From NCBI RefSeq assembly GCF_003234185.1, contig NZ_QKSM01000009.1, positions 62,001-126,000 of the forward strand: a DNA stretch of 64,000 bases, written 5' to 3'. The notes beneath the pieces are model-generated. The model worked only from the letters and a program-made list of their open reading frames with translations, had not been told where the DNA came from and did no database searches. The DNA is from Curtobacterium sp. MCSS17_008. GTDB lineage: Bacteria; Actinomycetota; Actinomycetes; Actinomycetales; Microbacteriaceae. Of this stretch, positions 19,674 to 57,973 are shown one piece after another. Within the stretch, counting starts at the first letter, position 1. Each line of letters starts with the position of its first letter. Position numbers and translations under genes: made by a program.

Positions 19674-19676
19674 CGT

Positions 19677-35468: not shown

Positions 35469-35622
35469 CGTGCGCCGACGTCGCTGGTCCGCCGGCCGGA
35501 GGCTCCCCCGGATCTCCCGCCGAAAGCGCACCGAAAAGGGTGTACCCGGAGTCCCTCCTATCCCGTCCGCCTCGGAAATACGTTCGTCTCATCAGCTTCG
35601 ACGAACGCAAGGAGACCGACGG

Positions 35623-36603: not shown

Positions 36604-36681
36604 TCCGTCTGTCCGCGAACACTCGGACGACGATCCAGCTCAACGGCCACCAGCCGCCCGACCCACCAGAAGGAGGACACC

Positions 36682-37350
36682 ATGACCGCTCCCACCCGCC
36701 GAACGTTCCTCTCCCTGGCTGCCGTGACCGCCGTCGGCGCCGTCTTGGCCGGCTGCTCCCGCGGCAGCACGTCGACGGGCGAGGCGCTCGACGCCCCCAT
36801 CGGGGGCGACCGCACGCTCGTCACGTACTTCTCCGTCCCCCTCACGGACCGTCCCGAGGGCATGGACCAGGACGAGGAGAACAGCACCCACGTCGTCGAC
36901 GGCAAGGTGTACGGGAACGTCCAGTACCTCGCGCAGCTCATCGAGGCCCGGCTCGGCGCCGAGGTGTTCCGCATCGAGACCGCCGAGGACCTGCCGACGT
37001 CGTACCAGCCGCTCGCTGACCTCGCGCTCGAGCAGCAGGAAGCCGGCACGCGCCCCGAGCTCAAGGACGGGATGCCCGACCTCGCCGACTTCGACACGGT
37101 GTTCATCGGTTACCCGATCTTCTGGTACGACATCCCGATGCCGCTGTACTCGTTCCTCGAGCAGAACGACTTCTCCGGCAAGAACATCGTCCTCTTCAGC
37201 GTGCACGGCGGCAGTCAGCTCTCCGGCAGCGTCGAGACGATCACGGAGGCACTGCCCGACGCGACGGTGTCGACGAACGCGTTCTCGATCTCACGCGACG
37301 ACATGGACGACTCCGAGTCGCAGATCCGCGACTGGCTGGACAGCCTGTGA
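36682..37350 (+). CDS. Exported flavodoxin (Tat/lipoprotein signal) 2
   Basis: 222 residues. TRRTFLSLAAV is a twin-arginine motif and LAGC a lipobox. The flavodoxin-like domain includes LVTYFSVPLTDRPEGMDQDE and DTVFIGYPIFWYDIP. It resembles flavodoxin family members proposed to reduce quinones or nitro compounds, but exported. The stop overlaps the GTG of the next small gene (GTGA); operon flavodoxin-small membrane protein-ferric reductase-like protein. Confidence 0.82.
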   Translation: MTAPTRRTFLSLAAVTAVGAVLAGCSRGSTSTGEALDAPIGGDRTLVTYFSVPLTDRPEGMDQDEENSTHVVDGKVYGNVQYLAQLIEARLGAEVFRIETAEDLPTSYQPLADLALEQQEAGTRPELKDGMPDLADFDTVFIGYPIFWYDIPMPLYSFLEQNDFSGKNIVLFSVHGGSQLSGSVETITEALPDATVSTNAFSISRDDMDDSESQIRDWLDSL

Positions 37351-37478
37351 GCCGCACGGTGAAGACGATCGTGCTCGCCGTGGTCCTGGTCGTCGCCTTC
37401 GTCGCACTCATCACCGTCAACCGCGCCCACATCCGTGAGGTCGGCGGCTTCGCATCCTCGGCCGTGGAGACACGGTGA
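37347..37478 (+). CDS. Small single-helix membrane protein (43 residues)
   Basis: Starts at GTG 37347 overlapping the flavodoxin stop and ends overlapping the GTG of the ferric-reductase-like gene, both by four bases. The product has one membrane helix (TIVLAVVLVVAFVALITV) and a short polar tail. Overlaps at both ends are strong evidence that it is real and made together with its neighbours; perhaps an anchor or subunit of the membrane flavoprotein. No family recognised. Confidence 0.7.
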   Translation: MSRTVKTIVLAVVLVVAFVALITVNRAHIREVGGFASSAVETR

Positions 37479-38758
37479 CGACATTCATCCGGCGGCTCGG
37501 CTTCTGGGCAGCGGCCGTCGTGTTCCCCCTCCCCCTCGTCATCGTCTACGACGTGTCCGCTCGCGAACCGGACATGCTCAAGTTTCCGATCGTCCTCGGT
37601 CTCACCGCGTACTCGTGGTGGCTGCTCGCCGTCCTGCTGAGCCTGCGGCCGCCGTGGCTCGAGCGGGTCGTTGGACTCCCGGCGATCTACGGTCTGCACG
37701 GCATGCTGGGCGTCCTCGCGGTCGTCCTCGCGCACTTCCACCGCACGAGCCTCTACGCCGGTGAAGCCCTCGCCATCTTGCTGGGCGACTGGAGCTTCTG
37801 GATCGCGCTCGGCGTCCTCTGCTGGTCCGTGTTCTTCATGAGCGGCTGGCTCGTCGACCGCGTCGCGCTGCTGCTCCGAGCCAAGCGCCTCGTCGAACCC
37901 GTCGTCCGCCACCAGGTGTCCGTGTGGGTGCACCGACTCAACCTCGTCGTCATCGCGATGATCTGGCTCCACGCCCACCTGCTCGTCCGGGTCAACCAAT
38001 ACTTCTGGTTCATGACCCTCCTGGACGCCTACACACTCGTCGTCCTCGCGCTCTACGTCTGGAAGAAGTGGATCGCCCCCGACGGGTACCTCAGCGGCAA
38101 CGTAGTCGCCAACGCCGCCCTCGGCGACACGTCGCGGGAGATCACCGTGCGGCTAGACCGACCCGCCACGTCGCTCCGGCCGGGCGACTTCTTCTTCACC
38201 CGCTTCGAGACCCGGGGCGTCGCTCATCGTGACTGGCACCCCTTCTCGGTCACGGGCACCGACCAGTCCACGCTCACGTTCACGATCCGGCAGAACGGCG
38301 ACCACACGAACCGGCTCGCGTCACTCCCCGACGGAGCCCGGGTGCGGTTCGAGGGCCCGTTCGGGCGCTTCGGCCGGACCGCGGAGCGGCATGACGCCGC
38401 ACATCCTCTCGTCCTCATCGGCATGGGAGCCGGCGTCGCGCCCCTCATGAGCCTGCTCGAGGCACACCACACGACCCGTCCCGTGCACCTGCTCTGGTCG
38501 GTCCGGCGGGAGGCCGACGCGTACTTCCGCGACGACCTCGAGCAGCGCGTCGCGGCCTCGAACGGCCGCCTCGCAGTGACGATCCGCGTCGGTCGGTTCC
38601 GCCGGGAGGACCTCGCCGCGACGATCCCCCGCCGCGCGGTGCAGTCGGGTGCGTTCTTCGTTGTCGGTCCGAACGCCGCGGTCCTCGCGAACCAGCGCAT
38701 GCTCCGTCGGCTGGGTGTGTCGTCCCGGCGCATCCACCAGGAGCGGCTCACGATGTGA
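37475..38758 (+). CDS. Ferric-reductase-like membrane flavoprotein
   Basis: 427 residues. The first ~210 have about six membrane helices with paired His for b-type haem (GLHGMLGVLAVVLAHFHR; VWVHRLNLVVIAMIWLHAHL), the ferric-reductase transmembrane domain. The C-terminal FAD/NAD module shows HPFSVTG, IGMGAGVAPLMSLLE and FFVVGPN. It should move electrons from NAD(P)H across the membrane to an extracytoplasmic acceptor, plausibly the FMN-binding lipoprotein and exported flavodoxins encoded here. Confidence 0.87.
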   Translation: MTTFIRRLGFWAAAVVFPLPLVIVYDVSAREPDMLKFPIVLGLTAYSWWLLAVLLSLRPPWLERVVGLPAIYGLHGMLGVLAVVLAHFHRTSLYAGEALAILLGDWSFWIALGVLCWSVFFMSGWLVDRVALLLRAKRLVEPVVRHQVSVWVHRLNLVVIAMIWLHAHLLVRVNQYFWFMTLLDAYTLVVLALYVWKKWIAPDGYLSGNVVANAALGDTSREITVRLDRPATSLRPGDFFFTRFETRGVAHRDWHPFSVTGTDQSTLTFTIRQNGDHTNRLASLPDGARVRFEGPFGRFGRTAERHDAAHPLVLIGMGAGVAPLMSLLEAHHTTRPVHLLWSVRREADAYFRDDLEQRVAASNGRLAVTIRVGRFRREDLAATIPRRAVQSGAFFVVGPNAAVLANQRMLRRLGVSSRRIHQERLTM

Positions 38759-38766
38759 GCCGACCG

Positions 38767-38820
38767 CATGACGGACGGGAGGCGCGGTGCCAGCTGGCGT
38801 CGCGCCTCCCGTCCGTCATG
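38767..38820. terminator. 54-base near-perfect palindrome, bidirectional terminator
   Basis: Perfect 20-base arms, 38767-38786 and 38801-38820, around a loop that itself contains GCCAGCTGGC. Core GGGAGGCGCG as in the hairpins at 24521 and 29455. Lies between convergent genes. Confidence 0.88.
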
Positions 38821-38837
38821 CGGTCCGGTCCACCGCC

Positions 38838-39992
38838 TCAGCTGCCGGCGAAGCTCCTGCTGAACCCCTGGCCGGACTCCACCATCCGCTGCACCGCCAT
38901 CAGTCGTTCCGCCTCGTACCTGCGCAGCGCCGCGGGCACGTCCCCGGTACCGGCGCCCGCGAACGCGGTCCTGATCGACTCGGCGTCCTCGACGGACTCG
39001 TCGAACCCGGAACCCGTCATCGGAGTCGGGACGTGCGCCGCGTTGCCAACGAGGGCTAGCCGACCGTGCACCAGGCGGGTCGGGACGAACTCGGCGATCG
39101 GCGTGCCCGTCACTCGGCCGCGGCGGAAAGCCGCGCGGATGATCGCTGCCCACGGCTGCGGCCACTCGGCGAGTCCGGCGGCGACTTCGGTCACGAGGTC
39201 TGCTGGGATGTCGGCCGGACGGAGCGAGTGCTGCACCACGGTGCCTTCGACCACGCCCAGTCGACGCATCGCGGGGCCACGGTCAGCGTCGTAGAGCGCG
39301 AAGGACACGATCCGGTGCCCGGGCGCCGAAGAGCCGTCGTCGCCGGCGAAGGCGTGCGCGAAGAGGATGCCGCGGCCCCACTCCATCACGCCGTCGTCGC
39401 TCTCCGGGAGCCAAAGCTCCTCCGGGAGCTCCGCCTCGTGGAGGCTGCCGACCCACAGCAGGTAGCCGGCGTAGCGGGCATGGGATGCCTCCGGCGACAC
39501 GCATGGACGGACGATGCTCCGATGACCGTCAGCGCCGATCACCAGCGCCGCGGTGATCCGCTCCCCTGTGGCGAGGTCCACCCAAGCCGAGTCGTCGGCC
39601 TGTCCGACGTCGACAACCGCGGCGCGGTCGCGCAGCTCGATCAGCGGGTCGGCAGCCGCGGCAGCGCGCAGCCGTCCATGGATCCGGAACCACGGCTCGA
39701 CGGAGTGATCCCTGCCGCCCGACGCGACCTCGCGCAGACTCGGCGCTTCCGTGCCGTCGAAGCGCAGCATTGTTCGACGACGTCCGCGAGCGGCCCGGAG
39801 GAACGCCCCCTGGATGCCGTGGCGAACGGCGCGTTCGAGCACGGTGACGTGCCAGCCGTCGGATGCGAGTGCGAGCGCGGTGAGCAGCCCGGAGAGAGAA
39901 CCGCCGACGACGATCGCCCTGTGCGATGAATCGGTGCGGTCAACGGTTCGGTCGGCAGTAGCGGAAGTTTCTGACGGTCTGATCGAGTGCAT
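38838..39992 (-). CDS. FAD-dependent monooxygenase (PHBH-like)
   Basis: 384 residues. N-terminal FAD motif IVVGGSLSGLLTALALASDG, middle motif LVIGADGHRSIVR and C-terminal LALVGNAAHVPTPMTGSGFD are the three fingerprints of class A flavin monooxygenases; a Gly-x-Ser variant replaces the usual GxGxxG. Hydroxylates an aromatic or similar organic substrate, unknown here. Start ATG 39992 chosen; upstream in-frame sequence lacks coding character. Confidence 0.85.
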   Translation of the reverse strand: MHSIRPSETSATADRTVDRTDSSHRAIVVGGSLSGLLTALALASDGWHVTVLERAVRHGIQGAFLRAARGRRRTMLRFDGTEAPSLREVASGGRDHSVEPWFRIHGRLRAAAAADPLIELRDRAAVVDVGQADDSAWVDLATGERITAALVIGADGHRSIVRPCVSPEASHARYAGYLLWVGSLHEAELPEELWLPESDDGVMEWGRGILFAHAFAGDDGSSAPGHRIVSFALYDADRGPAMRRLGVVEGTVVQHSLRPADIPADLVTEVAAGLAEWPQPWAAIIRAAFRRGRVTGTPIAEFVPTRLVHGRLALVGNAAHVPTPMTGSGFDESVEDAESIRTAFAGAGTGDVPAALRRYEAERLMAVQRMVESGQGFSRSFAGS

Positions 39993-40463: not shown

Positions 40464-40865
40464 TTAGGCGATCGCCATCTCCGTGCCGTGTGCCACTTGT
40501 GTGGAGCTTTCGCGGTGCACATAGTAGAAGCTCTGCGGGATTGAGGGAGCCAGTTCGGACAGCGGACGCGGCTGACCGTACCGTATGGCCTTGTCCACGA
40601 CGAATGCGACCGCGTTCACGGCGGAGGCGTAATACTCGCCGAAGCTGTGTCGGTCAATCACGCCTACTGCTCCGTATCGAGCCCAGATTCGCTCGGGAGC
40701 GTCGACGACGGTTTCCCTGATACGGAACTCACCGACGACCTTCTGAACTGGCGCGGTGGCGTAAATGACGATTGTCTCGATGTCATCAGCAAGCTTGCGC
40801 TTTCGGAATTCGACTTGCTTTGTTCCCTGAAGGATTGCGTCGGCGTATACCGGGTGAATCGCCAT
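40464..40865 (-). CDS. ASCH-domain protein
   Basis: 133 residues. MAIHPVYADAILQGTKQVEF, FRKRKL and VIYATAPVQKVVGEF are the ASCH fold signature, a PUA-related RNA-binding or nucleoside-hydrolysing β-barrel. The start ATG lies five bases after the stop of the PIN-GNAT gene, so the two are co-translated. The partnership suggests an RNA-directed function. A longer start at 40898 would overlap the partner by 28 bases. Confidence 0.75.
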   Translation of the reverse strand: MAIHPVYADAILQGTKQVEFRKRKLADDIETIVIYATAPVQKVVGEFRIRETVVDAPERIWARYGAVGVIDRHSFGEYYASAVNAVAFVVDKAIRYGQPRPLSELAPSIPQSFYYVHRESSTQVAHGTEMAIA

Positions 40866-40870
40866 AACCG

Positions 40871-42391
40871 CTACCCGCTCAGTTGCTGAAGTATCCACGC
40901 TCGCCCTTCCTCGCTCGCAGCCCGTGTGATCGTCTGTGGTGGGCCGTTCAGGACGCCCATCGCCACGAGTTCGTCAAGTGACCACGCCTCGTCCAGGAAC
41001 CGGTCCTGACGGAACAGAACCGCGATGACGCCACTCTGACACATGCGACTGACTTCCTCTGCCGTGTATACGGTGCGTCGTCCGACGAAGGAGAGCACGA
41101 CTGACGGGTCGCTGCTTCGAAGGGTTTGCTCCACAACGCCGATCGCTCTGACCGCTCCCTGACCGCCTCGAGCTCCTGCCGATCGGTAGAACAAGATGAC
41201 CGAACCAGCAGGGAGAGATTTCCGGGTCGAGTTGCTGAGGTACGCCTTCCTGAGCGCGTTGCCGAACGGTCGTATCTCGACGTTAGAGAACCCAGGGAGG
41301 GTGAGGGTTCCATCTAGGCTCGGACTGTCGGGGAACAGCCCCTCATACCAAGTCGGCCGGATAGGTATGACGAACACGTCACTCCCACTCGCGACGGCTG
41401 GAGGTCCGTAGCGAACGTGGTAGGTCAGCGGGTCCGTAGGTGCATTGGCGCCGGACCTGAGGTTCTTTTCAAGGACCCACTCGTCGTCGGTGCCAGGCAG
41501 TCGCCCCACATTGACGAAGCCAAACGTGTCAAGGAAACGCATCAGCACCTGCTTAGCGTCGTCATTGATGACCGTCACGAACAGCGCGTCGACGCGCTGA
41601 ACATGTGCCCACTGCAACACCGTTTTGAGAAGGAGCTCCCCGAGCTTCTCTCCCTCCGCACGGTCGTCAACCTTGAAGGTTGAGATTTTCGTGAGTTGCC
41701 GTCCGGCCTCCAACGGGTGGTCATCGTCTCGTTTAACAATCGCGATCGCTCGATAGCCACCGGCTGCGTCTTCGACGATCCACACTCGACGAGATGGATC
41801 CGGAGCTACCTTGTTCCTAATCCAGCCGTCAAAGTCTGGGTAATCGCGTCGCAGCGAATCAAAAATCGGCTCATCGAGTCTCAGTTCGGCCGCCATCACC
41901 ATCCGCACTTGCGGCGGCGCCGGTGGATCGTCCGGATGCAGCGTCCGGAGCAGCGCGAGCGCCTCCGCCGGCCGAAGGACCTGCTCCTCGAAACCCAGCC
42001 GGGTAGCCCGACGTATCAGTCGGCCGTCGTTCGTCACAAAGTGGGTTGCCGCCCCCGCGGTCACCGCAGCAAGCAGCCGGATGTCTCGCAGGTCGTTCGA
42101 GCCGGGCGGCGGGTTCCCTGCCGCCTCGATGAGTTCATCGGGGAGGGGGGGCTCGCCAATCCGTTCGTACTTTTCTAGCGCACGCAGGTTGGCTGCGCGA
42201 TGCTCGGGGTTGACGGTTTCACGGAGGTCGTCGAAGTTCGCCGGATGAACAACAACATGATGACCGTGTTCCCGAGCGAGGCGAAGAAACTGCGCAAGCG
42301 TGGACCGGGTTGCCTCCTCGCTTCCGTCGAACGGCTCGAGAGCGATCACCGCGTTCGTGTCAAGGAGGAACCGCAGTCGTGGCGCAACCAT
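40871..42391 (-). CDS. PIN-GNAT-PUA-like three-domain protein
   Basis: 506 residues. Residues 1-~155 are a PIN-type nuclease domain (FLLDTNAVIALE with Asp11; NDLRDIRLLAA; FVTNDGRLIRRA). Residues ~165-315 resemble a GNAT acetyltransferase (RVWIVEDAAGGYRAIAIVKR, LGELLLKTVLQWAHVQRVDA, RFLDTFGFVNVG). Residues ~320-506 look PUA/ASCH-like (SVILFYRSAGARGGQGAVRA, IGVVEQTLRS). Combining an RNase domain, an acetyltransferase and an RNA-binding fold suggests action on tRNA or another RNA. No cognate antitoxin of known type is adjacent, only the ASCH protein. Domain calls are by motif and layout. Confidence 0.65.
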   Translation of the reverse strand: MVAPRLRFLLDTNAVIALEPFDGSEEATRSTLAQFLRLAREHGHHVVVHPANFDDLRETVNPEHRAANLRALEKYERIGEPPLPDELIEAAGNPPPGSNDLRDIRLLAAVTAGAATHFVTNDGRLIRRATRLGFEEQVLRPAEALALLRTLHPDDPPAPPQVRMVMAAELRLDEPIFDSLRRDYPDFDGWIRNKVAPDPSRRVWIVEDAAGGYRAIAIVKRDDDHPLEAGRQLTKISTFKVDDRAEGEKLGELLLKTVLQWAHVQRVDALFVTVINDDAKQVLMRFLDTFGFVNVGRLPGTDDEWVLEKNLRSGANAPTDPLTYHVRYGPPAVASGSDVFVIPIRPTWYEGLFPDSPSLDGTLTLPGFSNVEIRPFGNALRKAYLSNSTRKSLPAGSVILFYRSAGARGGQGAVRAIGVVEQTLRSSDPSVVLSFVGRRTVYTAEEVSRMCQSGVIAVLFRQDRFLDEAWSLDELVAMGVLNGPPQTITRAASEEGRAWILQQLSG

Positions 42392-44919: not shown

Positions 44920-45948
44920 TCAACTCGGCAGGTTGTGACGGAGGTCGTAGCCGGTGTCGGCCAGGAACTGCAGCCGGTCTCGTACTTCTTCAAGCGAGGC
45001 CGCGTCGTGATCGTTACGCATGTCGGCGCGGAGGAGCGTGTTCGCAGTGATGAAGTCGTCGGTGCGGTCCGTGTAGCCGGCGGCGGCTGCGGTGAGGAAG
45101 ATCGTGGGATCGGCGGGCCGGATGAGTTCGCTGCCGGCGAAGCCGATCGTGTCTGGTTCGAAGCCGAGCGCTGCCATGTCGACCTCCTCCTCGGTGAACG
45201 CGACGACCCGGTAGGGCATCTCTCGCTTGCTGATGGCGGGGTAGCCGGGCCGGTCGGAGATGGCACGGCCGGAAATGCGGCAGCCCGCGTCCATGAGCCG
45301 CTCCGCTTGCTCGACCAGCGGCAGGTCTGACGTCCACCGGGTCCTGACACCTCCCGGTCCGGGGTAGCAGGCGATCGCGAAGTCCACGAGACCGCCCACC
45401 TGGCGCGACTCCCACCCGATGTCGGTGCGGTGCACGCGTTTCCCTAGACGTGCGAGAGCGTCGTCAACCTGCCCTGCGGTCAGCCCTGCCCGCACGAGCT
45501 TGTCGAAGGTGGCGCCGTTGACCGCGAGCATCCGTGCGACGGCAAAGGTGATGTAGATCGGTGCGGCGTCCTTCCAGCGCTCCTGCACGCCGAGGATCTG
45601 TCTTCCGTCGACCCAGACGCGGCGCTGGTCGACGTCGACCAGCAGCACGGTCGTGGTCTGTTCCGCGAGTGCGATCTGCGTCGTCGTCACGGTCCGCGGC
45701 GCCAACAGGAGCAGTTCCGCGTCGTCCGGGTCGTCGTCACGGGGGCGTTGAGTGCTTGTTGGGAAGCGTGCGCGGCGGCCGTCGGCGAGGCGGATCGTGT
45801 CGTGCGACTCCACGACCGCGCGAAGCCCCGCCATTTTCAGGACCGCTAGAGCGTTGGTGAGGTCGGTGGTGTCGCCGAGCCCGTACGGCATCGTGATCTG
45901 CGGCCGACCCGCGTATGCGGCGGCGACCCATTCGAGCCCGGGCCCCAC
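44920..45948 (-). CDS. AbiEi-like winged-helix protein, copy B
   Basis: 342 residues, paralogue of the protein at 47384. Shared landmarks are MPYGLGDTTDLTNALAVLKM, the β-pair RRVWVDGRQI, a winged-helix stretch (LVRAGLTAGQVDDALARLGK, RVHRTDIGWES), LVDFAIACYPGPGGVRTRW, GRAISDRPGYP, and DLRHNLPS at the end. The order (N-terminal β domain, wHTH, then L-x-D...YPGPGG) recalls AbiEi-type antitoxins of type IV toxin-antitoxin systems, but no AbiEii-like nucleotidyltransferase toxin is present. GTG start overlaps the upstream stop by one base (TAGTG). Last gene of the operon. Confidence 0.6.
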   Translation of the reverse strand: MGPGLEWVAAAYAGRPQITMPYGLGDTTDLTNALAVLKMAGLRAVVESHDTIRLADGRRARFPTSTQRPRDDDPDDAELLLLAPRTVTTTQIALAEQTTTVLLVDVDQRRVWVDGRQILGVQERWKDAAPIYITFAVARMLAVNGATFDKLVRAGLTAGQVDDALARLGKRVHRTDIGWESRQVGGLVDFAIACYPGPGGVRTRWTSDLPLVEQAERLMDAGCRISGRAISDRPGYPAISKREMPYRVVAFTEEEVDMAALGFEPDTIGFAGSELIRPADPTIFLTAAAAGYTDRTDDFITANTLLRADMRNDHDAASLEEVRDRLQFLADTGYDLRHNLPS

Positions 45949-46193
45949 TAGCTGCGCTCGTCTCGGGTGTCGGGTTGGGTGAGGGCGATGAGCCAGCGGG
46001 TTTCTTCGAGAAACGGTTCCCATCCGTCGCGGGGGTCGCCGTGGGCTGGTTCGCAGATGTTGCCGGTGTCGGTGCTGCGGATGATGACTTGCCGCAGCTC
46101 GGAGCTGGGTGGGTCGCGGAAGAACACGTGCCCGTGTACGCCGGTGACGTCGTAGGCGATGTTGAGGAGGAACAGGTCTGGCCGGCTGGTCAT
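45948..46193 (-). CDS. Small repeated-domain protein, copy 4 (81 residues)
   Basis: Paralogue of the 92-residue protein at 47092 and of the N-terminus of the protein at 46190: LFLLNIAYDVTGVHGHVFFR aligns with LLSLTLAYDDTRFFGSVMFT and LVSMHLSNDRILWGHVLLED. It ends with a helix (EPFLEETRWLIALTQP) in the same position as the others. Probably one β-sheet plus one helix. ATG overlaps the previous stop by four bases (ATGA). No known family. Confidence 0.6.
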   Translation of the reverse strand: MTSRPDLFLLNIAYDVTGVHGHVFFRDPPSSELRQVIIRSTDTGNICEPAHGDPRDGWEPFLEETRWLIALTQPDTRDERS

Positions 46194-47053
46194 GGTCGCC
46201 ACCGTCGTCCGCGGAAGAGGGCGATGATCGTCGTTAGCGGTCGTCCTTCCCGCATCCAGTCCAGTGGTGTCAAGACTCGGTCGTCGACGGTGAGGAAGTC
46301 CAGGGGCGTGGTCATGAACTCGGTCATCGCGGCAGCGTCGAGGAGCGGCTGCGGTGCTGCAGCGTAGAGGACATCGAGGCCGGGCAGCAGTGACGACGGA
46401 TCACCGAACTCGGGGAGTGCGGGCTTCACGAGCTGCCAGTCGGGGATACGTTCTTCGCCGTCGAGGTCGAAGCTCGTCAGCCGGCACGAATCGAACAGCT
46501 CCCCGACCTCGTCGATGCTGATCTGCAGGGCCGCAGCAACTTCCGGCTCCGTGAGGGTCGTGTTAAGCAGGTTCCGGCGGATGCGGGCTTGCGTGGTCTG
46601 CCACCAGTCCTCGGGCACGTCCGCCGGGCCGACGGCGCTCGGTCCGGGCGCGCGGGGGATCTGTCGGCCTTTGTCGGCGTACGCGGACAGCTGTTCGCGG
46701 GTGACTTCCCCTCGGGCGTACATCCACAGCTGCGACTGCCACGGCATGTCGTCCGGGAACCCCTCCAAGTAGCCGGAGTGGATCACCGCCCGGACGGCTT
46801 TCTCCCGTCGTGCGATCTCGGAGGCGGGGATGAGGAGGGTCTGCACGATCCGGTTCGCTTCCCGTACCGCCGGCACCGTCAGGTCCGACAGGACCGTGTT
46901 TGTCCTGTCGTAGAGCTCGTACCCGGGCTCGACGTCGACGGGGCGGACGAGGATCTGCGCCAAGTGTGCGTCCGGGTTCTCGGTGTCCTCGAGGAGGACA
47001 TGCCCCCAGAGGATCCGGTCGTTCGACAGGTGCATGGACACCAGACGCATCAT
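46190..47053 (-). CDS. Repeated domain (copy 3) fused to HTH and MbcA/Xre-like tail
   Basis: 287 residues. Residues 1-~85 are the small repeated domain (LVSMHLSNDRILWGHVLLED ... EANRIVQTLL). Residues ~150-205 form an excisionase/MerR-type helix-turn-helix (LTEPEVAAALQISIDEVGEL, FDSCRL, IPDWQLV). Residues ~210-287 (LPGLDVLYAAAPQ, TEFMTTPLDFLTVDDRVLTP, LDWMREGRPLTTIIALF) resemble the C-terminal domain of Xre/MbcA/ParS-type antitoxins, where 'TPLDWLREG' is a hallmark. It may be the operon's regulator or antitoxin. Strong GGAGG nine bases before ATG 47053. Confidence 0.6.
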   Translation of the reverse strand: MMRLVSMHLSNDRILWGHVLLEDTENPDAHLAQILVRPVDVEPGYELYDRTNTVLSDLTVPAVREANRIVQTLLIPASEIARREKAVRAVIHSGYLEGFPDDMPWQSQLWMYARGEVTREQLSAYADKGRQIPRAPGPSAVGPADVPEDWWQTTQARIRRNLLNTTLTEPEVAAALQISIDEVGELFDSCRLTSFDLDGEERIPDWQLVKPALPEFGDPSSLLPGLDVLYAAAPQPLLDAAAMTEFMTTPLDFLTVDDRVLTPLDWMREGRPLTTIIALFRGRRWRP

Positions 47054-47091
47054 CAGCAACTACCTCCAAAGTTGGGCATGAGAAGGGCGGG

Positions 47092-47370
47092 TTAGGGCTG
47101 GGGGAAGTCGGCGCGGGTGCGGCCGAGGCGTTCGGGTGTGTAGCGGAGGAGGAACCGCATGATGCGTTCCGCTTCGACCATCGCCGGCACCGTCGGAGCC
47201 TGACTGTCCGGGTCGACGTTGGTGAGGCGGAACCAGGGAGGTTCGTCGGCGTGGTCGATGAGGACCGTGGCCGGCTTGTCGTCCGGGTGATCCGGGTCGG
47301 TGAACATGACGGAGCCGAAGAAGCGGGTGTCGTCGTATGCCAACGTGAGGGACAGCAGCTGCAGCATCAT
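47092..47370 (-). CDS. Small repeated-domain protein, copy 2 (92 residues)
   Basis: LLSLTLAYDDTRFFGSVMFT, then VLIDHADEPPWFRLTNV, then a helix VPAMVEAERIMRFLLRYTPE. The same helix (V-x-x-E-A-x-R-I) is found in the protein at 46190. Stand-alone version of the domain; no known family. 13 bases after the stop of AbiEi-like copy A. Confidence 0.6.
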   Translation of the reverse strand: MMLQLLSLTLAYDDTRFFGSVMFTDPDHPDDKPATVLIDHADEPPWFRLTNVDPDSQAPTVPAMVEAERIMRFLLRYTPERLGRTRADFPQP

Positions 47371-47383
47371 CGGGCTCGCCGGG

Positions 47384-48400
47384 TCAGCTTCCGCTGGGGT
47401 GCCAGCGGAGGTCGTGGGCGAGGTCGGACTGGAAGTGCAGCAGCTGCCGCAATCCGTTCACTGCATCCATGTTCGCGGTAACCCAGCTGTCTTCGTACAG
47501 GACGTGCGCGGTGATGAAGTCGTTCGTGCAGCACCCCTCAGCGCTGCTGAGGACGGTGGTGTCCTGTGGGATGACGACCGACACCGTCGCGTCATCCGCC
47601 GCCGCAGGCTCGTAGCCGAGCGCCTGCATGTCCGGGTGGTCGGCGAAGAGCGCAGTCAACCGGTCCGGGGGAACGAGCACCCCGGACTGCTGCGCCGCCC
47701 ACCGGTCCGACATCACCCCACCCAGCCCGATCAGCTGATCCGCCTGCGCATCGATCGTGTCGTTCCGTCGCCAGCAGGTGCGGACTCCGCCATAGCCTGG
47801 GTAGGCCGCCAGGGCCCAGTCGACCAGGACGGGCCGGTCGGCGGCTTCCCACCCGATGGGCGTGTGGAACACGTGCGGACCGAGGGCCGACATGGCGGCG
47901 CGGACTTCGCCCATGGGGATGCCGGTGCGGTCCGCGATCGCGTGCGTGCCGCCGCCGTGCATGACGACGCTGCGGGCGATCGCGAACACGGTCCGCCACC
48001 CCGGGGTCGCTTTTCGCTGCATCGACGTGCCATGCACCTGCCGGCCGTTCGCCCACACGCGCCCGCGTTTCCCGTTCACGACCACGAGGTCCGGGTAGCG
48101 GCGGACCAGTGACAGCACCCCGCCCTCGGACCCGCCCGGCAGGAGGATCACATCATCCACACGGCTCTCGGCACCGTCGTCGCCGTCGGTCACGGTGGTA
48201 GTCGGGTCCGGGGTGGCGAGGAACGCGGCGCGGCCGTCGTCGAACCGGAGCCGGTCGAACGCCTCCACCCGTGCCGGCATCCCGGCAGCCGCGAGGGCGG
48301 TGAGCGTCTGGGTGATGTCGATCGTGTACCCGAGCCCAAACGGCAACGACAAAATCGACTGTTCGCGCCGAATGTCCTGCACCCACCGCCGATCAGACAT
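47384..48400 (-). CDS. AbiEi-like winged-helix protein, copy A
   Basis: 338 residues, paralogue of the protein at 44920 over its whole length: LPFGLGYTIDITQTLTALAA, GRVWANGRQVHG, IADRTGIPMGEVRAAMSALG (wHTH), TPIGWEAADRPVLVDWALAA, YPGYGGVRTCW, CTNDFITAHVL. As in copy B, layout recalls AbiEi-type antitoxins. No signal peptide or membrane helix. The start ATG overlaps the upstream small gene by eight bases. Confidence 0.6.
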   Translation of the reverse strand: MSDRRWVQDIRREQSILSLPFGLGYTIDITQTLTALAAAGMPARVEAFDRLRFDDGRAAFLATPDPTTTVTDGDDGAESRVDDVILLPGGSEGGVLSLVRRYPDLVVVNGKRGRVWANGRQVHGTSMQRKATPGWRTVFAIARSVVMHGGGTHAIADRTGIPMGEVRAAMSALGPHVFHTPIGWEAADRPVLVDWALAAYPGYGGVRTCWRRNDTIDAQADQLIGLGGVMSDRWAAQQSGVLVPPDRLTALFADHPDMQALGYEPAAADDATVSVVIPQDTTVLSSAEGCCTNDFITAHVLYEDSWVTANMDAVNGLRQLLHFQSDLAHDLRWHPSGS

Positions 48401-48707
48401 CAGCCGACCCCACCGCATCCGCACGACGCCCCACCGCGCGAAGCTTCACCAGCACGTCCATCACCTGCGTCGCCGATTCCAGGAGCGGGTCAGCAGGGTC
48501 CGTCAACGGTGCTCCGTTGAGGAGCGTGAACACCCGCTCGTCTTCCGTGGTGCGGACGTTGACGGTTCGTTGCAGAATCTTCGGCCCGGTGGAGTTCGCG
48601 AACGTCATACCCGCCACCGTCGGCCAGATCACGGCGTCGAACTGCGCCGACAACGACAGCAGCCGCAACGGAACCGGCTCGAACCGCGGCGCCCGACGCT
48701 CAGGCAT
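48393..48707 (-). CDS. Small repeated-domain protein, copy 1 (104 residues)
   Basis: LRLLSLSAQFDAVIWPTVAG at residues ~14-33, then NVRTTEDERVFTLLNGAPLT, and a helix with LLESATQVMDVLVKL. Same strand-strand-helix order as the copies at 47092, 46190 and 45948, though more diverged. Overlaps both neighbours by eight bases, so translation is coupled on both sides. Confidence 0.55.
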   Translation of the reverse strand: MPERRAPRFEPVPLRLLSLSAQFDAVIWPTVAGMTFANSTGPKILQRTVNVRTTEDERVFTLLNGAPLTDPADPLLESATQVMDVLVKLRAVGRRADAVGSADV

Positions 48708-49404
48708 CGTCAGCCAGCCGTGGGTCGTCCTCCGACAGACGCTCCAAGCCCAGTCCTGAGGCGTCGAGGATCGCGTTCTCCGACTCTTCGGTAGCGACGA
48801 ACGACCCGATCTGCGCGTTGATCGCGACAAGAGTCCCTATCCGACTCCGTGCGTCCAACACGACCGCGGTGACCTCCTCCTCCGTGCAGTTCGAGGTCAG
48901 TTCGGGCTTCGACGGGTGAAGGGCGGGGAACTCGAGCTGCTGCACGGGCGGGTGCCACTTGACGCCGATGCGGAGCATCCGGCCGTCCTTGTCGTTGCGG
49001 TAGAACATCGACCCGAACGGGTGACCCATGTCGAGGGTGAGGTCCGCGCCATGAAGCGTCCACCCGGTCGCCGCGTAAGCCGGATCCCACCGCTGAACTA
49101 TGAGCGAGCCGATACCCATCGTGAGACCGGAGATGAGGGCCTGGTCTTCTCGCACTTCGACGAGGAGAGCTTCCAGGTCGGGCTGGTTGACCCCCCGAAG
49201 GTCGGACAGTGAGATTCGAGACAGTCTCTGGCCGGACCCTGACTGCAGCCGAGACTCCGGACGCCTGTTCTTCGGGACGAAGGGCGAGTCGTGGTCGCTC
49301 ACGCGCGGGCTGTCCCAGGTAGCTGCGACGCCACTCTGGCGGTGGCAGCGCAGCTCGGCATTGAATGCTGTGGTGCACTGGTCATAAGACACTCCTTCTA
49401 GCAA
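48700..49404 (-). CDS. Unrecognised protein, first gene of the seven-gene operon
   Basis: Up to 234 residues. The coding-like part is IGSLIVQRWDPAYAATGWTL, HGADLTLDMGHPFGSMFYRN, RIGVKWHPPVQQLEFPALHP, EEEVTAVVLDARSRIGTLVA. No family recognised; no signal peptide. The start is uncertain: TTG 49404 opens the frame, GTG 49302 (before SDHDSPFVPKN) gives about 200 residues, and an AGAAGGAG site at 49392-49399 points to a start near 49385 that is out of frame with the long protein (a short leader of 28 codons). Confidence 0.5.
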   Translation of the reverse strand: MLEGVSYDQCTTAFNAELRCHRQSGVAATWDSPRVSDHDSPFVPKNRRPESRLQSGSGQRLSRISLSDLRGVNQPDLEALLVEVREDQALISGLTMGIGSLIVQRWDPAYAATGWTLHGADLTLDMGHPFGSMFYRNDKDGRMLRIGVKWHPPVQQLEFPALHPSKPELTSNCTEEEVTAVVLDARSRIGTLVAINAQIGSFVATEESENAILDASGLGLERLSEDDPRLADDA

Positions 49405-51540: not shown

Positions 51541-52503
51541 ATGCAAGCTATCGAGCAACTGCAGACGATCCCGCTCGAGGTATCCCCGGGTCGTGAAGTT
51601 GAGGACTGGCACGCGCAACGGTGGCTTCCGCAGCGCTCCCAGAGTTCCGACATCGAACTGCGCGCCCTACTCGAGCGGTTTAGAAGCGAGACCCGTCGAT
51701 CGCCCGGAGTGCGAGCGCGGCTGAACCGTCCAATCGGTGCACCGAAGCAGAGCACCCCACTGCCGCCGCAGCCGACGGGACCTCATCTCGATTACGTGAT
51801 CGCGCTTGGGCGGCGGACCAGTGTGACCCGGCAAGCGGAAGCCGTCACGCTCGCCGACCTCGTCTTCGCGCACCCTCGACGCGACTTCTCGAGGCGGCCG
51901 CATCAGCATCATCACCCCATCGCGCAGTACGCAGGCACCGTTGGCGATCTGGTCATGTGCGAGTCTCAGCTAGAGCGTGCCTTCGTGCTCCTGGCCGATT
52001 TCACTCCGACGGTCTTGCACATCGTCAGTCAGCCGCTGACGATCATGTTCCGTGTCGGATCGCAGATTCGATGGCATACGCCAGACTTCTGTGTCCTACG
52101 TTACGGGGCACCGCCTCTCGTGGTCGACGTCAAACGACCTGAGCAAGCGCTCGTCGTTCGAACCCAGGAGCGGCACTGGCTGGTGGCTGAGGCCCTAGCT
52201 GCTGCAGGTATGCACTACCTCGTGTGGACCGGGCTGGCCGAGCCGGTCGTCGCCAACCTCAGCCTCCTCTCGCGCGCACAAACGCCGATCAGCGGAGAAC
52301 GGCGCAATGTCCTCCGTGATGTGACGGTCCAGTGGGTTCTCGACGGGCCTCAAACCTTCGAAAGTCTGGCCACAGCGCTCACGCGTGAACACTCCGTGCC
52401 AGATCTCGCGGCGAAGACCTTTCTGCGCGAACTCATTTGGCAGCGTCAGCTGCGCATACACATGCACCACTTCCTTCTGCCCGAAAGTGAGGTCTGGGCA
52501 TGA
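51541..52503 (+). CDS. TnsA-like transposon endonuclease
   Basis: 320 residues. The restriction-fold nuclease of Tn7-like elements: VMCESQLERAFVLLADF (Glu), WHTPDFCVLRYGAPP (Asp) and LVVDVKRPEQA (Lys) give the E...D...xxK active site, in the middle of the protein. The C-terminal part (FESLATALTREHSVPDLAAK) is a wHTH-like domain for partner contact. TnsA cuts the 5' strands at the transposon ends, with TnsB cutting the 3' strands, so this element should move by cut-and-paste. Overlaps tnsB by four bases (ATGA). Confidence 0.85.
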   Translation: MQAIEQLQTIPLEVSPGREVEDWHAQRWLPQRSQSSDIELRALLERFRSETRRSPGVRARLNRPIGAPKQSTPLPPQPTGPHLDYVIALGRRTSVTRQAEAVTLADLVFAHPRRDFSRRPHQHHHPIAQYAGTVGDLVMCESQLERAFVLLADFTPTVLHIVSQPLTIMFRVGSQIRWHTPDFCVLRYGAPPLVVDVKRPEQALVVRTQERHWLVAEALAAAGMHYLVWTGLAEPVVANLSLLSRAQTPISGERRNVLRDVTVQWVLDGPQTFESLATALTREHSVPDLAAKTFLRELIWQRQLRIHMHHFLLPESEVWA

Positions 52504-54632
52504 GCCTGCACGAGAGCCAACCGCGCCCGGCTGTTCGAACCATGGCCGTTGGTACGCGGCTTCAGTGGTTCGGGCACGACGTCCACATCGGTCGAATCGG
52601 CGTCTTCGAAGTAGATCTCGTCTCCGTGAACGGCGCACTGCTCGGGACCGCACCGATCAAAGACGTCCTCGTCGCCCTACAACAACCCGGCTCCAACACA
52701 CAGCTGTGGCGCGATCAAGATCCCGCTGAGATACTCCGCGACGACGCGGCGGCACTGCAGGAGTATCGCGAAAAATACGACATCATCCACCGACTCCTCA
52801 CCGGCTTAGCAACTGACGCGCCAGCTGGCGCTGTACCCCGCCCCGAGCAGGACCCGAAATACGCGAAGCTACCGAAACGAATGCGAGCTCTTGCCGAGCA
52901 GCGCTACCGGGACCCACGGGTGAAAGGCCGCCGGACGGGAACGACCGTCACGCTCGAGTCGGAGCTGACCTACATTCGCCGCACCTATCGCAAGTGGCTC
53001 GAGAAGGGGCCGATGGGGCTCGTGCACGCGTCCCGGCTGCGCGCACGGGACCCGATGGACAACCCAATTCGGGCGGCAGTTGCTGAGTTCATGACATCAC
53101 AAGTGAAGGGCACCAAACGCACGGCCCAATCGTGGGCTCGTCTGTTCAGGGCGTGGGCGCAGAAGGAGCGGGCCGATCTTCGCCTACCGGAGGACGTCAC
53201 GCTTGCGGACTACATCTCGGCATGGGTGCGAGCGCGAGACCATGCCGGCGGAACGGCGAAGAGTCAACGATCTGCAGCGAACAGGCCTGCGATGTCGCCA
53301 CGGCTTCGCGTTGCTACGCGCGCGGGGGAACTTGTGCTGTTCGACACCACGAAGGTCAACGTTTGGGTGCGGAACCCGGAGGGATCCGGCTTGGTTCGGC
53401 TGGAGCTGACGGTAGCTCTTGACCTCTACTCACGAGCGATCGTCGGTATCGCGCTTACCCACACGACACCAGCGCAAGCAATAGCCCTCTGTCTCGCCGA
53501 CGTCATCGTGCCCAAGGCGCAGGAAGCGCTGGAGGAGTGGCGCGGCGATCCGCCGACGCCCTATGTCGGTTGCCCGGCGGAGCTTGACTTCTTCGCCCGA
53601 ATCGAAGACCCGGATGCGCGAGGATTCCTGCCGGAAACCGTACATACAGACAATGGCAGCGCCTACGTATCCTCAACCATGGTGGCGCTCTGTGCCTACT
53701 TCCAAATCTCCTATGAGCAGTCCCGTGCCTACACGCCGACCGACAAAGCGCAGATCGAGCGGGTGTTCCTCACGATCAAGCAGATGCTCGAAGAGCTACT
53801 TCCCGGCTTCCTCGGCGGAAGCACTGACGACCGTGGCGAGGGCACCGAGCGCCACGCGACACTGACTCCCGGCGACTACGAACTCGCCGTCCGGAGATTC
53901 GCCTACGTCTACAACCGCCGTGTCATGGAAACGCTCCACACGGAGGACGATCCGTACACCGCCATGAGTCCGATGGAAATGTTCGAGTACTCCTTGCGCC
54001 GCCACGGGGCGATTCGGCTGCCGGCCCACGCACTCGACCCCATCCGGCTGCTCCCGTTCTCCGATCTCGCCGTCGATGCTGGGCGAGTGTTCTGCCGTCG
54101 GCTGTACTACCGCAGTCCCGTGTTGGCGGAGATCGCCTCCGACCCACTCGCCGTCAACGATGCTCGTCAGCTCCGCATCTACTACGACCCGACAGATATG
54201 CGGCAGGTCTACGTCTTCGACTCCGCGGGACGGTGCCACGAGATCCCCTGGAAGGATCGGCAGCCCTGGACGCGCCGGTTCGGTCTCTACTTCGCGGGAC
54301 AGGTTCGAGAGCGCCTGGTCGCCGAACACCTCGACCCGGAAGCCGTTGGCACCCTCCTCAACGAGATCATCAACCGATTCGATCGCGATGAACTCCTCGA
54401 ACCGCCAGCGCTGCTGAGCACATCAGAGCAGGTCATGCGGCAGGCAATCGACCCCGTCATGCGGCGATTCCGCGAGCGATTCCAGGTGCCCTCGCCTGTC
54501 TCGCCGAAAGAGATCCGGACAACTAAGGGCAAACGCCAGCAGGCCCCGGCGACGCCTCCTGTCCGCGTGGAAGCCGTCGCGCCTGCCACCACTCGTAAGG
54601 CCATCGAGCCGCTGCCCATCTGGACACCGTGA
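52500..54632 (+). CDS. TnsB-like DDE transposase
   Basis: 710 residues. N-terminal HTH region with RTYRKWLEKGPMGLVHASRL. The RNase-H-fold integrase core has Asp282 (LVLFDTTKVN), Asp384 (VHTDNGSAYVS) and Glu420 (KAQIERVFLTIKQ), a DD35E spacing. A Mu-type C-terminal β-barrel and a Pro/Arg-rich tail follow. Retroviral-type integrases of the TnsB/TniA/MuA group carry out end cleavage and strand transfer. Overlaps both neighbours by four bases. Confidence 0.9.
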   Translation: MSLHESQPRPAVRTMAVGTRLQWFGHDVHIGRIGVFEVDLVSVNGALLGTAPIKDVLVALQQPGSNTQLWRDQDPAEILRDDAAALQEYREKYDIIHRLLTGLATDAPAGAVPRPEQDPKYAKLPKRMRALAEQRYRDPRVKGRRTGTTVTLESELTYIRRTYRKWLEKGPMGLVHASRLRARDPMDNPIRAAVAEFMTSQVKGTKRTAQSWARLFRAWAQKERADLRLPEDVTLADYISAWVRARDHAGGTAKSQRSAANRPAMSPRLRVATRAGELVLFDTTKVNVWVRNPEGSGLVRLELTVALDLYSRAIVGIALTHTTPAQAIALCLADVIVPKAQEALEEWRGDPPTPYVGCPAELDFFARIEDPDARGFLPETVHTDNGSAYVSSTMVALCAYFQISYEQSRAYTPTDKAQIERVFLTIKQMLEELLPGFLGGSTDDRGEGTERHATLTPGDYELAVRRFAYVYNRRVMETLHTEDDPYTAMSPMEMFEYSLRRHGAIRLPAHALDPIRLLPFSDLAVDAGRVFCRRLYYRSPVLAEIASDPLAVNDARQLRIYYDPTDMRQVYVFDSAGRCHEIPWKDRQPWTRRFGLYFAGQVRERLVAEHLDPEAVGTLLNEIINRFDRDELLEPPALLSTSEQVMRQAIDPVMRRFRERFQVPSPVSPKEIRTTKGKRQQAPATPPVRVEAVAPATTRKAIEPLPIWTP

Positions 54633-55732
54633 AGCAGACCCGCCCCGCGGAGCCATGGCTCGACTTGCTCACCGACACCGATCGCGACTTCATCGCCGCC
54701 GTCCGCGGTGAACTCATCCCAGACCCCGGCCTGCTCACCATGCGTTCACTGCGCGCCCTCTCGGATCTGGATCGGGAGCGCTACGCCATGAGGCGCACTA
54801 AATGGCACCGGCACTTCCCCATCATCCGACTGTCGTCGCGTGAGCAAATCTACGAGCAGTTCGAGGTGGACCGCCGCGAAGACGAGTGGTCGCGAGGTGA
54901 CTACGCGGAAGGGCATCCTGTCAGCGTGCTGGACGGACCGCCCGGAGTGGGCAAGTCCACTTTGCTTCGAGCGGAGATTGCAAGCTCGCTTGCCTTGGCC
55001 GCTCGGACCCGATGGCTCGACGAAGACGAAAAAGTCGCTCAACCAAGCACCAGCTACCGACATGTTCCGACGTACCAACCGGTCATCCGATTCCGCCACA
55101 CTTCCGCAAATACTGTCCCGACGATCGTAGCGGGACTACTCGGGAAGCTGGGCCGACCAATCGGGCCACGGCCACACGAGAGCCTTGCGCTGGCGTTGAA
55201 GGAATGCCGCACGTCGCTCATCGTCTTTGACGAGGTGCAGCGCGTGAACTTCGACCGGAAGACTGGGCAACATGTCCACGGGCTTCTTCGAGAACTCAGT
55301 GAAGGCCACAGTCGACTGATTCTCGCTGGAAACGACGCTAGGTGGATGCTCGAACGGCCGAAGATGTTCGGCGCGACGTTCGGAACGGATGCTTCTGCTG
55401 ACCGGTGGATCGTCCTTAGGGTCAATCCCCTTGGGTACGATGATGAAGGTCAACAAGTAGAGTGGCGTCAATTCCTTGCGGCCATTGAGCGCCGCGTCCG
55501 ACTTTGCGACTTGCCGGAGCAGGGATGGCTGTCCGAGGGGCTTGCTGACTACCTGTACGCCCTGTCCGAGGGGCGCTTCAACACTCTGCTTGGAGTCCTG
55601 AAGCGTAGTTTCGTCCGAGCGATCGCAGATGGGTCAGAACATGTCGACCGCGCGCTCCTGGAACGAGCACGTATCGAATGGACGCGTGAGCAGAACCGTC
55701 TATCACGTACGGCAGAGCTCGATGACGACTGA
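54629..55732 (+). CDS. TnsC/TniB-like transposition ATPase
   Basis: 367 residues. AAA+ domain with Walker A DGPPGVGKSTLL (~102-112), Walker B SLIVFDEVQRVNFD and sensor LILAGNDARWML. TnsC couples target selection by TniQ to the TnsA-TnsB transposase. GTG start overlaps the tnsB stop (GTGA). The N-terminal 95 residues (FPIIRLSSREQIYEQFEVDR) resemble the TniB leader. Confidence 0.87.
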   Translation: MKQTRPAEPWLDLLTDTDRDFIAAVRGELIPDPGLLTMRSLRALSDLDRERYAMRRTKWHRHFPIIRLSSREQIYEQFEVDRREDEWSRGDYAEGHPVSVLDGPPGVGKSTLLRAEIASSLALAARTRWLDEDEKVAQPSTSYRHVPTYQPVIRFRHTSANTVPTIVAGLLGKLGRPIGPRPHESLALALKECRTSLIVFDEVQRVNFDRKTGQHVHGLLRELSEGHSRLILAGNDARWMLERPKMFGATFGTDASADRWIVLRVNPLGYDDEGQQVEWRQFLAAIERRVRLCDLPEQGWLSEGLADYLYALSEGRFNTLLGVLKRSFVRAIADGSEHVDRALLERARIEWTREQNRLSRTAELDDD

Positions 55733-57668
55733 TGAAGGCAGGTCCCGCACGCTCTCTGAAATCCCGCAGGTCCTTGGAGTTCAGGTGAAGCTCGGGCCGG
55801 GCGAATGGCTGCAGACGGCGATCAGTCGCTGGGCGTACGAGATGCGATCGTCACGAGGCGAGCTTCTCGACTTCTTCGGGCTGCGCGGCCTACCGCACAA
55901 CGAGCTGATTTCGCTCGGGAATCACGCCCAAGAGGATGTCATCGAACGCATCGCTGTGTCCACGCGCCTGGCGACCGCAGCTTTGCGGGGCTCGCTGATG
56001 AGTAGTCTGAATGGCAAGGCGCTCATCATCGACGACACAACGGAGCGAGCGGCGCACAGCATCGCCCGTCGCAGTCCCCTGGCAAGGCTGGCGGGCACCC
56101 GTTATTGCCCTGCCTGTCTGAGAGAGCAGTCCGGCGTGTACAACCTGACGTGGCGTCTGCACTGGTCCTTCATCTGCCCAATACACAGCTGCCTCCTTCG
56201 CGACACATGCCCGGACTGCGGCCGCACTCCTGCAGACGACCGGAGCAAGACAACCAGGAGCTTCGATCCCGACACTTGCCGCAACCGACTTGATCCGAGC
56301 AGTCGATTCAGTTTCTGTGGATTTCCATATCCAGATGACATCGTCGAGTCGGTCGACCCCGAGGGGCGACCGGCGAAGGCGCAACGACTGATTCTCGACC
56401 ACATCGGCTCACCAGGCGGGGCCCTCGAGCTGCTCAACAATCTCCGCTCCATCGGTGCCGCTTTGCGCGCGACGGGCAACACCGGCCGGATAGCGCGCCT
56501 CGCGAACCTGGAACCGGCAGAACTTGAGGGGATGATTGATCATGAGGAGCACCCCGGCACAACAGCACCACTCGACGCTTTCGCGATGAGCGCTCTCACG
56601 GCAGCAGCAGTAGAGATACTTCACGCTCCGGACGAGATCAGCGCAGAACGTATACGGATCACCACTTTCGAGCGCCCAGTCGGATATGCGCCCGCATCGG
56701 TGCATCTAGGTCCTGGATCTGCCCGAGACCTCATAGCGCACTACCCGGGGGCGCAGCAATCTACGACGCTTCGACGTGCGATTCTCCGGGCACACGACCG
56801 TGACCTGTCCGCTACGCAGCGCATCGTGTGGGGCAGCACCTTGACGAGGGCGGTACGAGACAAGTACCCAGAACTCGCAAAGCCGACACCAGTGGAGTGG
56901 TTAGCGCAGAACGTGCCGCGCAACTTTTGGCCGTCTTGGACCGCCCGGTTCGACGGCGACTCGGGAACCAGCGAGGGAGCTCTGGCTCGGGCTCTTCGTT
57001 TCGTTCTGCTCCACACCGACTCTTGGGAACAAGCTGACCTGTCCCGAGGGCCACGCCACCTGGGGCAGGTGAGGGACAGAGGCATCCTTCCCGCCCTTGG
57101 TGAAGGTCACGCTCTGACACAACGCCTGGCTGGCATTGGGCAGCTGCGACTCGTAATGGAAGCATCGCCGTCCCCAATCGATTACTACGCGCGCACACGG
57201 TTCCCCCTGCGGCAGTTGCTAACTCCAGCCGCATGGAAGCTCGTGGCAGATCGCGCAGGGGTGCCTACTGGCGGCCGTATCGGACTGGCATGTGCTCGGT
57301 GGTACCTCTCGAACCGCGTGACAGGCGTTCGAGAACCCGGGCGAGGTGCGCCCTCGACCGCCGAAGCCGGGGAGACATACACGATCTTCCGTTTGAGCAT
57401 GACGGTCGAGCTGCAGCGGGAGCTCGATGCGCACGCGGGCGCAGTTCTCCGCTCCTTAGACCTACATGGCCCCGTTACTTGGTCGCCCCCTTTGATCGAG
57501 CTGCCGCTGGGCAGCCCAGGGCGAGAACTCAAGGACGTCAATCTCGCGCTCCTACACGAACTACTGCGATCTGGAGAACGACAGCAACGAGTTCTTGCCG
57601 GCGAGCTCGGAGTCAGTCCTCGGCGCGTGCTCTGGGCCGTCGACGAGCAGCCTCCAGGCGCGCAGTGA
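55722..57668 (+). CDS. tniQ: TniQ/TnsD-like target-selection protein
   Basis: 648 residues. TniQ domain with GPGEWLQTAISRWAYEMRSS and a zinc-ribbon: YCPACLREQSGVYNLTWRLH, then FICPIHSCLLRDTCPDCG (CxxC...CxxH...CxxC). The long C-terminal part ends in a HTH-like AGELGVSPRRVLWAVDE, typical of TnsD-type proteins that recognise a specific chromosomal site. It is longer than the TniQ proteins of CRISPR-associated elements. Starts 11 bases inside tnsC. No cas gene is nearby. Confidence 0.87.
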   Translation: MTTDEGRSRTLSEIPQVLGVQVKLGPGEWLQTAISRWAYEMRSSRGELLDFFGLRGLPHNELISLGNHAQEDVIERIAVSTRLATAALRGSLMSSLNGKALIIDDTTERAAHSIARRSPLARLAGTRYCPACLREQSGVYNLTWRLHWSFICPIHSCLLRDTCPDCGRTPADDRSKTTRSFDPDTCRNRLDPSSRFSFCGFPYPDDIVESVDPEGRPAKAQRLILDHIGSPGGALELLNNLRSIGAALRATGNTGRIARLANLEPAELEGMIDHEEHPGTTAPLDAFAMSALTAAAVEILHAPDEISAERIRITTFERPVGYAPASVHLGPGSARDLIAHYPGAQQSTTLRRAILRAHDRDLSATQRIVWGSTLTRAVRDKYPELAKPTPVEWLAQNVPRNFWPSWTARFDGDSGTSEGALARALRFVLLHTDSWEQADLSRGPRHLGQVRDRGILPALGEGHALTQRLAGIGQLRLVMEASPSPIDYYARTRFPLRQLLTPAAWKLVADRAGVPTGGRIGLACARWYLSNRVTGVREPGRGAPSTAEAGETYTIFRLSMTVELQRELDAHAGAVLRSLDLHGPVTWSPPLIELPLGSPGRELKDVNLALLHELLRSGERQQRVLAGELGVSPRRVLWAVDEQPPGAQ

Positions 57669-57795
57669 CTATGGAACAGCTCCCTGCAGACTGAGTGCCT
57701 GAAGTGGACGGCCCTGCCCGAAACGTTCAGGCAGGTGCGCCGCCCGGGCATCGGACGGAAGGTCTAGGCGTCTTCGAGGCGCTCGAGTTGAACAC

Positions 57796-57973
57796 GGACA
57801 GTTTCGGTCGCCGACGCCGCGGACAACTTCCAAGCCAAGTCCGTGCAAGACGGGCCATCCGTCGGACAGAATCGGTGCGCTCTTCACAGTGTCGTCCGCC
57901 AGCTAACTTGTCCAACTGCCACACAACGTGTCCTGAAATACAGAGTTGGACAGGTTGCTTGGCAGCGCGGACA
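57796..57973. repeat. Cluster of GGACA repeats, putative transposon end
   Basis: Seven GGACA words in 178 bases: plus strand at 57796, 57821, 57864, 57948 and 57969; minus strand at 57909-57913 and 57929-57933. The fuller copies share YGGACARNTT (GTTGGACAAGTTAGCTGG on the minus strand, GTTGGACAGGTTGCTTGG on the plus). Repeats of this kind directly after tniQ are what TnsB-binding sites at a Tn7-like end look like. The exact terminus and the partner end were not found. Confidence 0.55.

Follow-up and report, generated by a model that had tools for sequence, protein, structure and literature searches.

The window analysed here, a 64-kb stretch of Curtobacterium sp. MCSS17_008 DNA to whose positions all coordinates refer, carries the replicative DNA helicase gene dnaB and a tnsA-tnsB-tnsC-tniQ module with a small HTH gene in front of it (Table 1). 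Given where dnaB lies, the region from 10.5 to 57.9 kb constitutes an island that splits this gene from its usual downstream sequence. The first-pass annotation had described an intact module of four overlapping genes with preserved catalytic, Walker and zinc-ligand residues, and this was borne out: all five open reading frames on the tns side, the HTH gene included, are intact, the tns genes overlap at their starts and stops (with tniQ likely beginning at 55722 and not at 55629), and the residues in question are conserved among homologs.

TnsA matches NF033179 (TnsA_like_Actin; E 8e-28, 97 bits, just missing the cut-off of 110 bits), and its PD-(D/E)xK-type residues are invariant in 11 homologs. 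TnsB was matched by HMM search to the rve and Mu-transpos_C families and further matches the PDB TnsB 7svw (E 4e-11), its DD35E residues (D282/D384/E420) being kept in at least 20 of 21 homologs. The Walker A and B residues of TnsC (G106/G108/K109/D201/E202) are invariant in 11 homologs, as are the Cys/His zinc ligands of TniQ in 10. TniQ matches PF06527 (E 3e-15) and its conserved residues are spread over the full 648-aa length of the homolog alignment. A fold search ranked TnsD first, weakly (best E 0.0045), a match that carries little weight since confidence in the underlying AlphaFold model is modest (mean pLDDT 62.7). No tnsE was recognised in the window element. Homologs of the HTH gene occupy the equivalent position in seven other elements, with 98% protein identity in a near-identical copy from C. 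caseinilyticum and 32-45% in six more elements, and a weaker match was found in genome G203; the gene therefore belongs to the module, where it is a candidate regulator or accessory factor.

Table 1. Features of the window element and its surroundings.
Feature	Position	Strand	Evidence or remark
dnaB, replicative DNA helicase, target gene	9168..10532	+	tblastn 95% to Curtobacterium DnaB; ssb-rplI-dnaB synteny
Left target duplication copy, GTGTC	10541..10545		starts 9 bp after dnaB stop
Transposon left end	10546..10611	+	TGTGA terminus; three direct TnsB-site-like repeats
Left-end TnsB-site-like repeats	10557-10572, 10577-10591, 10596-10611	direct	
577-aa protein	11036..12769	+	cargo; weak PADLOC PDC-M58A match
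High-GC cargo block	13510..39992		~26 kb
Candidate anti-phage pair, PDC-M11A (PIN-GNAT) and PDC-M11B (ASCH)	40464..42391	-	E 1e-166, 6e-41
Cargo cluster	44920..49302	-	paralogous pairs
HTH protein gene, 88 aa	51131..51397	+	precedes tnsA in most related elements too
tnsA, restriction-like endonuclease	51541..52503	+	NF033179 match; E145/D182/K198 invariant
tnsB, DD35E transposase	52500..54632	+	rve, Mu-transpos_C and PDB TnsB matches
tnsC, AAA+ ATPase	54629..55732	+	AAA families; Walker residues invariant
tniQ, TnsD-like, 648 aa, presumed target selector	55722..57668	+	PF06527; alignment; fold search
Transposon right end	57796..57888	-	three inverted TnsB-site-like repeats; terminus TCTTCACA
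Right-end TnsB-site-like repeats	57796-57812, 57821-57836, 57864-57879	inverted	
Right target duplication copy, GTGTC	57889..57893		
Left end (TGTCGTCCGCC family) of a different and older Tn7-like element	57890..57965	+	76 bp; window element inserted beside it

Ends, extent and cargo of the element

The element spans 47,343 bp (10546-57888), with the tns module at one end and the left end ~41 kb upstream of tnsA. Its termini read 5'-TGTGA...TCACA-3' and are followed inward by oppositely oriented repeat arrays, which by their sequence pattern are putative TnsB sites; left-end and right-end repeats are only loosely similar, and at either end TGTGA stands 20 bp from the first inner TGTC. The insertion lies 8 bp past the dnaB stop codon and is flanked by a perfect 5-bp duplication, the left border reading, from the stop onward, GGCCGTTT-GTGTC-TGTGACTAGG... 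and the right border ...GCTCTTCACA-GTGTC-GTCCGCC. A plasmid copy and six more elements, of which one lies away from dnaB, likewise have perfect 5-bp duplications. The left end was located via the dnaB comparison, a similarity search with the right end having returned no inverted copies elsewhere in the window. Two other borders were considered and rejected, namely a left border at the 44928 breakpoint, since the TGTGA ends and 5-bp duplications give 10546, and a right end at 57965, the limit of C. caseinilyticum identity, since 57890-57965 is the left end of another family, one that recurs 3' of dnaB in relatives without nearby tns genes. The stretch initially annotated, 51541-57973, thus stands as to the module genes and not as to its right limit: with the transposon ending at 57888, 57890-57973 belongs to the neighbouring element.

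The high-GC cargo block encodes a trypsin-like peptidase, VWA/DUF58/MoxR genes, a two-component system, MFS transporters, ApbE, SDR and aldo/keto reductases, flavodoxins, an esterase and a FAD monooxygenase-like protein. The cluster at 44920-49302 is, among the elements compared, common only to the window element and the C. caseinilyticum copy; the products encoded at 44920 and 47384 are 32% identical, indicating an internal duplication, and one member of the cluster weakly matches the VbhA antitoxin. Right of the element, at 58845-63934, lie arsenic-resistance genes (ArsB, ArsC-type reductases and a flavin monooxygenase), a block whose orientation relative to the transposon is inverted in C. 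caseinilyticum.

The core gene set tnsA-B-C-tniQ is shared with CRISPR-associated transposons (CASTs), and the element could on that account be taken for one. Neither cas effector genes nor a guide RNA were found with the cargo proteins scanned, which are part of the cargo and include no Cas family, no CRISPR repeat array occurs within 10546-57888, and the insertion sits at a fixed distance from a single gene, all of which make a CAST exceedingly improbable.

Independent insertions 3' of dnaB

Curtobacterium caseinilyticum RHCKG28 encodes a TnsB 99% identical to that of the window, and DNA identity between the two covers 44928-57965. Its element, of 53,684 bp, likewise lies 3' of dnaB and is flanked by a duplication of its own, GTCGT; the two insertion points are 2 bp apart, the right ends are 98% identical over 110 bp, the left ends 76% over 50 bp, and to the left of 44928 the two carry unrelated cargo. 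The different duplication, the 2-bp shift and the unrelated cargo mark the two elements as independent insertions. Most relatives are without the window element, and some show unoccupied junctions at the same point 3' of dnaB, although its exact empty site was found in none of the strains compared; a plasmid megablast with the window tns module gave no match.

In all, nine tns modules in eight Curtobacterium genomes lie 3' of dnaB, every one of them in the orientation of dnaB. Nine of 17 full TnsB matches fall within 92 kb 3' of the gene, for which a binomial calculation, over a range chosen post hoc and with related insertions not fully independent, gives a chance probability of ~2e-13. Perfect duplications with both ends present were read for four further dnaB-linked elements (G229, GGGGT; G105, GTTGT; G231, GGTTG; G259, TCTTT); those of G226, G203 and G050 yielded no convincing right end. 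A Tn7-type end follows the dnaB stop in 21 of 33 sampled loci, where mononucleotide shuffles gave 0.02 on average; the end motif was drawn up with the data in view, and the 76-bp match partly guided the choice of loci. Related elements in another genus and another family share the orientation relative to dnaB: in G050, from another Microbacteriaceae genus, the element lies 1 bp past the dnaB stop, and in G636 and G530, from another Micrococcales family, a TGTCGAGATGCAG end lies immediately 3' of dnaB with tnsB, tnsC and tniQ 9-17 kb beyond it. An order-wide TniQ search also returned three genomes (G278, G294 and G596) whose tniQ lies away from dnaB. Most of the dnaB-linked elements cluster in the TnsB tree as one well supported group (ten rows), and G203 and G226 form a separate lineage that is likewise found at dnaB. 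As a separate observation, dnaB matches in another Micrococcales family are split within ~940-1040-aa frames (G294 C2:173614-175218 and G530 C32:24223-25536), which suggests DnaB inteins.

At the level of sequence, then, the ends, the duplications, the site, its orientation and the independence of insertions are established. The first-pass annotation had called the element a site-directed, CRISPR-independent Tn7-like transposon of Microbacteriaceae with a target other than glmS, and had proposed to look at the ends, the target duplication, the target gene and a TnsB tree; each of these checks came out positive, with the 3' end of dnaB as the attachment site. The 10.5-57.9 kb extent, the dnaB target and the stacking described below had escaped it.

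The same annotation held that identical genes at one place in all relatives, without borders, would indicate a fossil, that is, immobile genes and ends left from an old insertion and kept at dnaB by descent. Older stacked ends without tns genes do lie 3' of dnaB in many relatives, implying that this site often harbours decayed elements. The window element, however, has borders, is absent from most relatives and has an intact tns side with its catalytic residues kept, its single near-identical copy is an independent insertion, and elements of relatives have moved recently (a 99.87% identical plasmid copy and the G225/G224 empty site, both described below). A fossil is thus very unlikely, and we infer present-day activity.

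Stacking of elements

The 76-bp end adjoining the window element is common in the genus, often ~10 bp 3' of dnaB, and ends of this TGTCGTCCGCC family bound the intact elements of G105, G231 and G259. C. caseinilyticum, too, has an older element on the far side of the younger one, with a duplication (CGTTC) read by eye from the sequence. As regards target immunity, stacking in the cases examined involves only elements of differing TnsB types or end types. We also observed that window positions 57890-58153, comprising the 76-bp end and ~190 bp of conserved downstream sequence (GCGGACCACCTATGTGAGAC and its surroundings), occur 3' of dnaB in many Curtobacterium without nearby tns genes. This marks dnaB as a hotspot for islands in Curtobacterium, which counts plant pathogens among its members.

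How the site may be chosen

We put the probability at about 90% that the island is a complete Tn7-like transposon of the actinobacterial type whose TniQ directs insertion 3' of dnaB, where later arrivals stack. By this account, TnsB would bind the repeat arrays at both ends and, together with TnsA, cut the element out and join it to the target, TnsC would link TnsA/TnsB to TniQ, and the long TniQ would serve, like TnsD, as the selector by recognising the conserved 3' end of the dnaB coding sequence. Insertion would then take place 0-8 bp past the stop codon, in a single orientation and with the essential gene left intact, and later arrivals, inserting at the same point, would push older ones outward into stacked islands.

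That the 648-aa TniQ reads the dnaB 3' end is most likely by analogy with TnsD, whose binding site in the case of Tn7 is the final 36 bp of glmS (PMC2918618), and its full-length conservation and the fixed position and orientation of insertions support this. Alternatively, the selector might be a host factor or another protein of the element, such as the HTH protein, with TniQ merely bridging to TnsC, comparable to TnsF in Tn6022. The HTH gene conserved beside tnsA, the mutual identity of only ~27-35% among dnaB-linked TniQ proteins and the use of a second site by relatives with one TniQ would fit such a selector. Yet TniQ is long and conserved over its whole length, like the protein-guided TnsD, and a search upstream of tnsA found no other gene common to the dnaB-linked elements; we therefore consider a selector other than TniQ unlikely.

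Relation to known Tn7-like elements

The element combines the features of Tn7-like transposons, i.e., TnsA, a DDE-type TnsB, the AAA+ ATPase TnsC and a TniQ-family selector, TGT..ACA ends with arrays of ~20-bp sites, a 5-bp duplication, and site- and orientation-specific attachment immediately 3' of a conserved essential gene (for TnsD, PMC2918618). It differs from Tn7 itself in attaching at dnaB instead of glmS, 0-8 bp past the stop compared to ~20 bp in Tn7, in its only remotely similar proteins, in the lack of a recognised tnsE and in the additional HTH gene. It resembles an Actinobacteria-dominated clade of Tn7-like elements (Benler et al. 2021), none of them experimentally characterised (PMC8649781), in host phylum, TnsA family match (NF033179) and defence-type cargo.

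The main text of that study makes no mention of dnaB (PMC8649781), nor is dnaB among the Tn7-like attachment sites named in the main text of a 2024 review, which are glmS, yhiN, comM, parE, tRNA genes, guaC, yciA, ffs and rsmJ (PMC11406308). No paper in the openly licensed literature, covered by main texts and for PMC8297831 by title and abstract, was found to join dnaB with Tn7-like targeting, and within that scope the dnaB site may be new to these elements. A delimited element with its natural target offers a ready system for high-GC Gram-positives, namely a protein-guided integrator placing large DNA at a fixed point past an essential gene.

A possible second kind of target site on mobile DNA

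Closely related elements were also found away from dnaB. The G225 element (19,419 bp, duplication ACGTG) is one of these: removing it together with one duplication copy yields a 1,600-bp sequence with a 100% identical counterpart on contig C112 of the sister genome G224, the exact empty site of this element. An element of the G229 type (23,613 bp) recurs end to end at 99.87% identity on the C. flaccumfaciens plasmid NZ_CP106880.1, with the duplication CAAGA. Both the plasmid and the G225 elements lie near a 22-bp tyrosine-recombinase core-like site, TTCCGAGAATGACTATTATCGG, and in G205, G223 and G227 such Tn7-like ends lie 34-62 bp from variants of it. The motif was seen at this spacing from Tn7-like ends at loci L149, L147, L151, L153 and L154 (around 1501). 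In 66 genomes we counted 19 occurrences of the motif and none of its control, and in 5 of 10 loci read the motif precedes a tyrosine recombinase gene closely related to that of the plasmid.

This sequence pattern suggests that related elements have a second target on mobile DNA, and one may speculate that the resident recombinase takes part in selecting it, perhaps serving, when bound at TTCCGAGAATGACTATTATCGG, as a docking point for TniQ/TnsC. We consider it possible, at rather less than even odds, that this lineage uses two kinds of target in its life cycle, both of them new, homing to dnaB and inserting beside TTCCGAGAATGACTATTATCGG on plasmids or integrative elements, perhaps by docking via bound recombinase.

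The proximity of related elements, at 34-62 bp, to a recombinase core-like site on mobile DNA recalls the res-site hunters Tn5053/Tn402, of which Tn5053 inserts at plasmid resolution sites (PMC11406308, Table 1); here, in contrast, the recombinase belongs to the tyrosine family, the elements carry TnsA and the window element itself sits at dnaB. Tn6022 (TniQ+TnsF, comM) is likewise Tn7-like, with a conserved-gene target and a link to tyrosine recombinases, in its case through TnsF (PMC10293859). Its TniQ is short and it disrupts comM, whereas the window element has a long TniQ and no TnsF that we could find, and spares dnaB. The transposon on plasmid NZ_CP106880.1 (L135:5554-29166) also carries CBASS-like genes, encoding ThiF, DncV-like and SAVED proteins.
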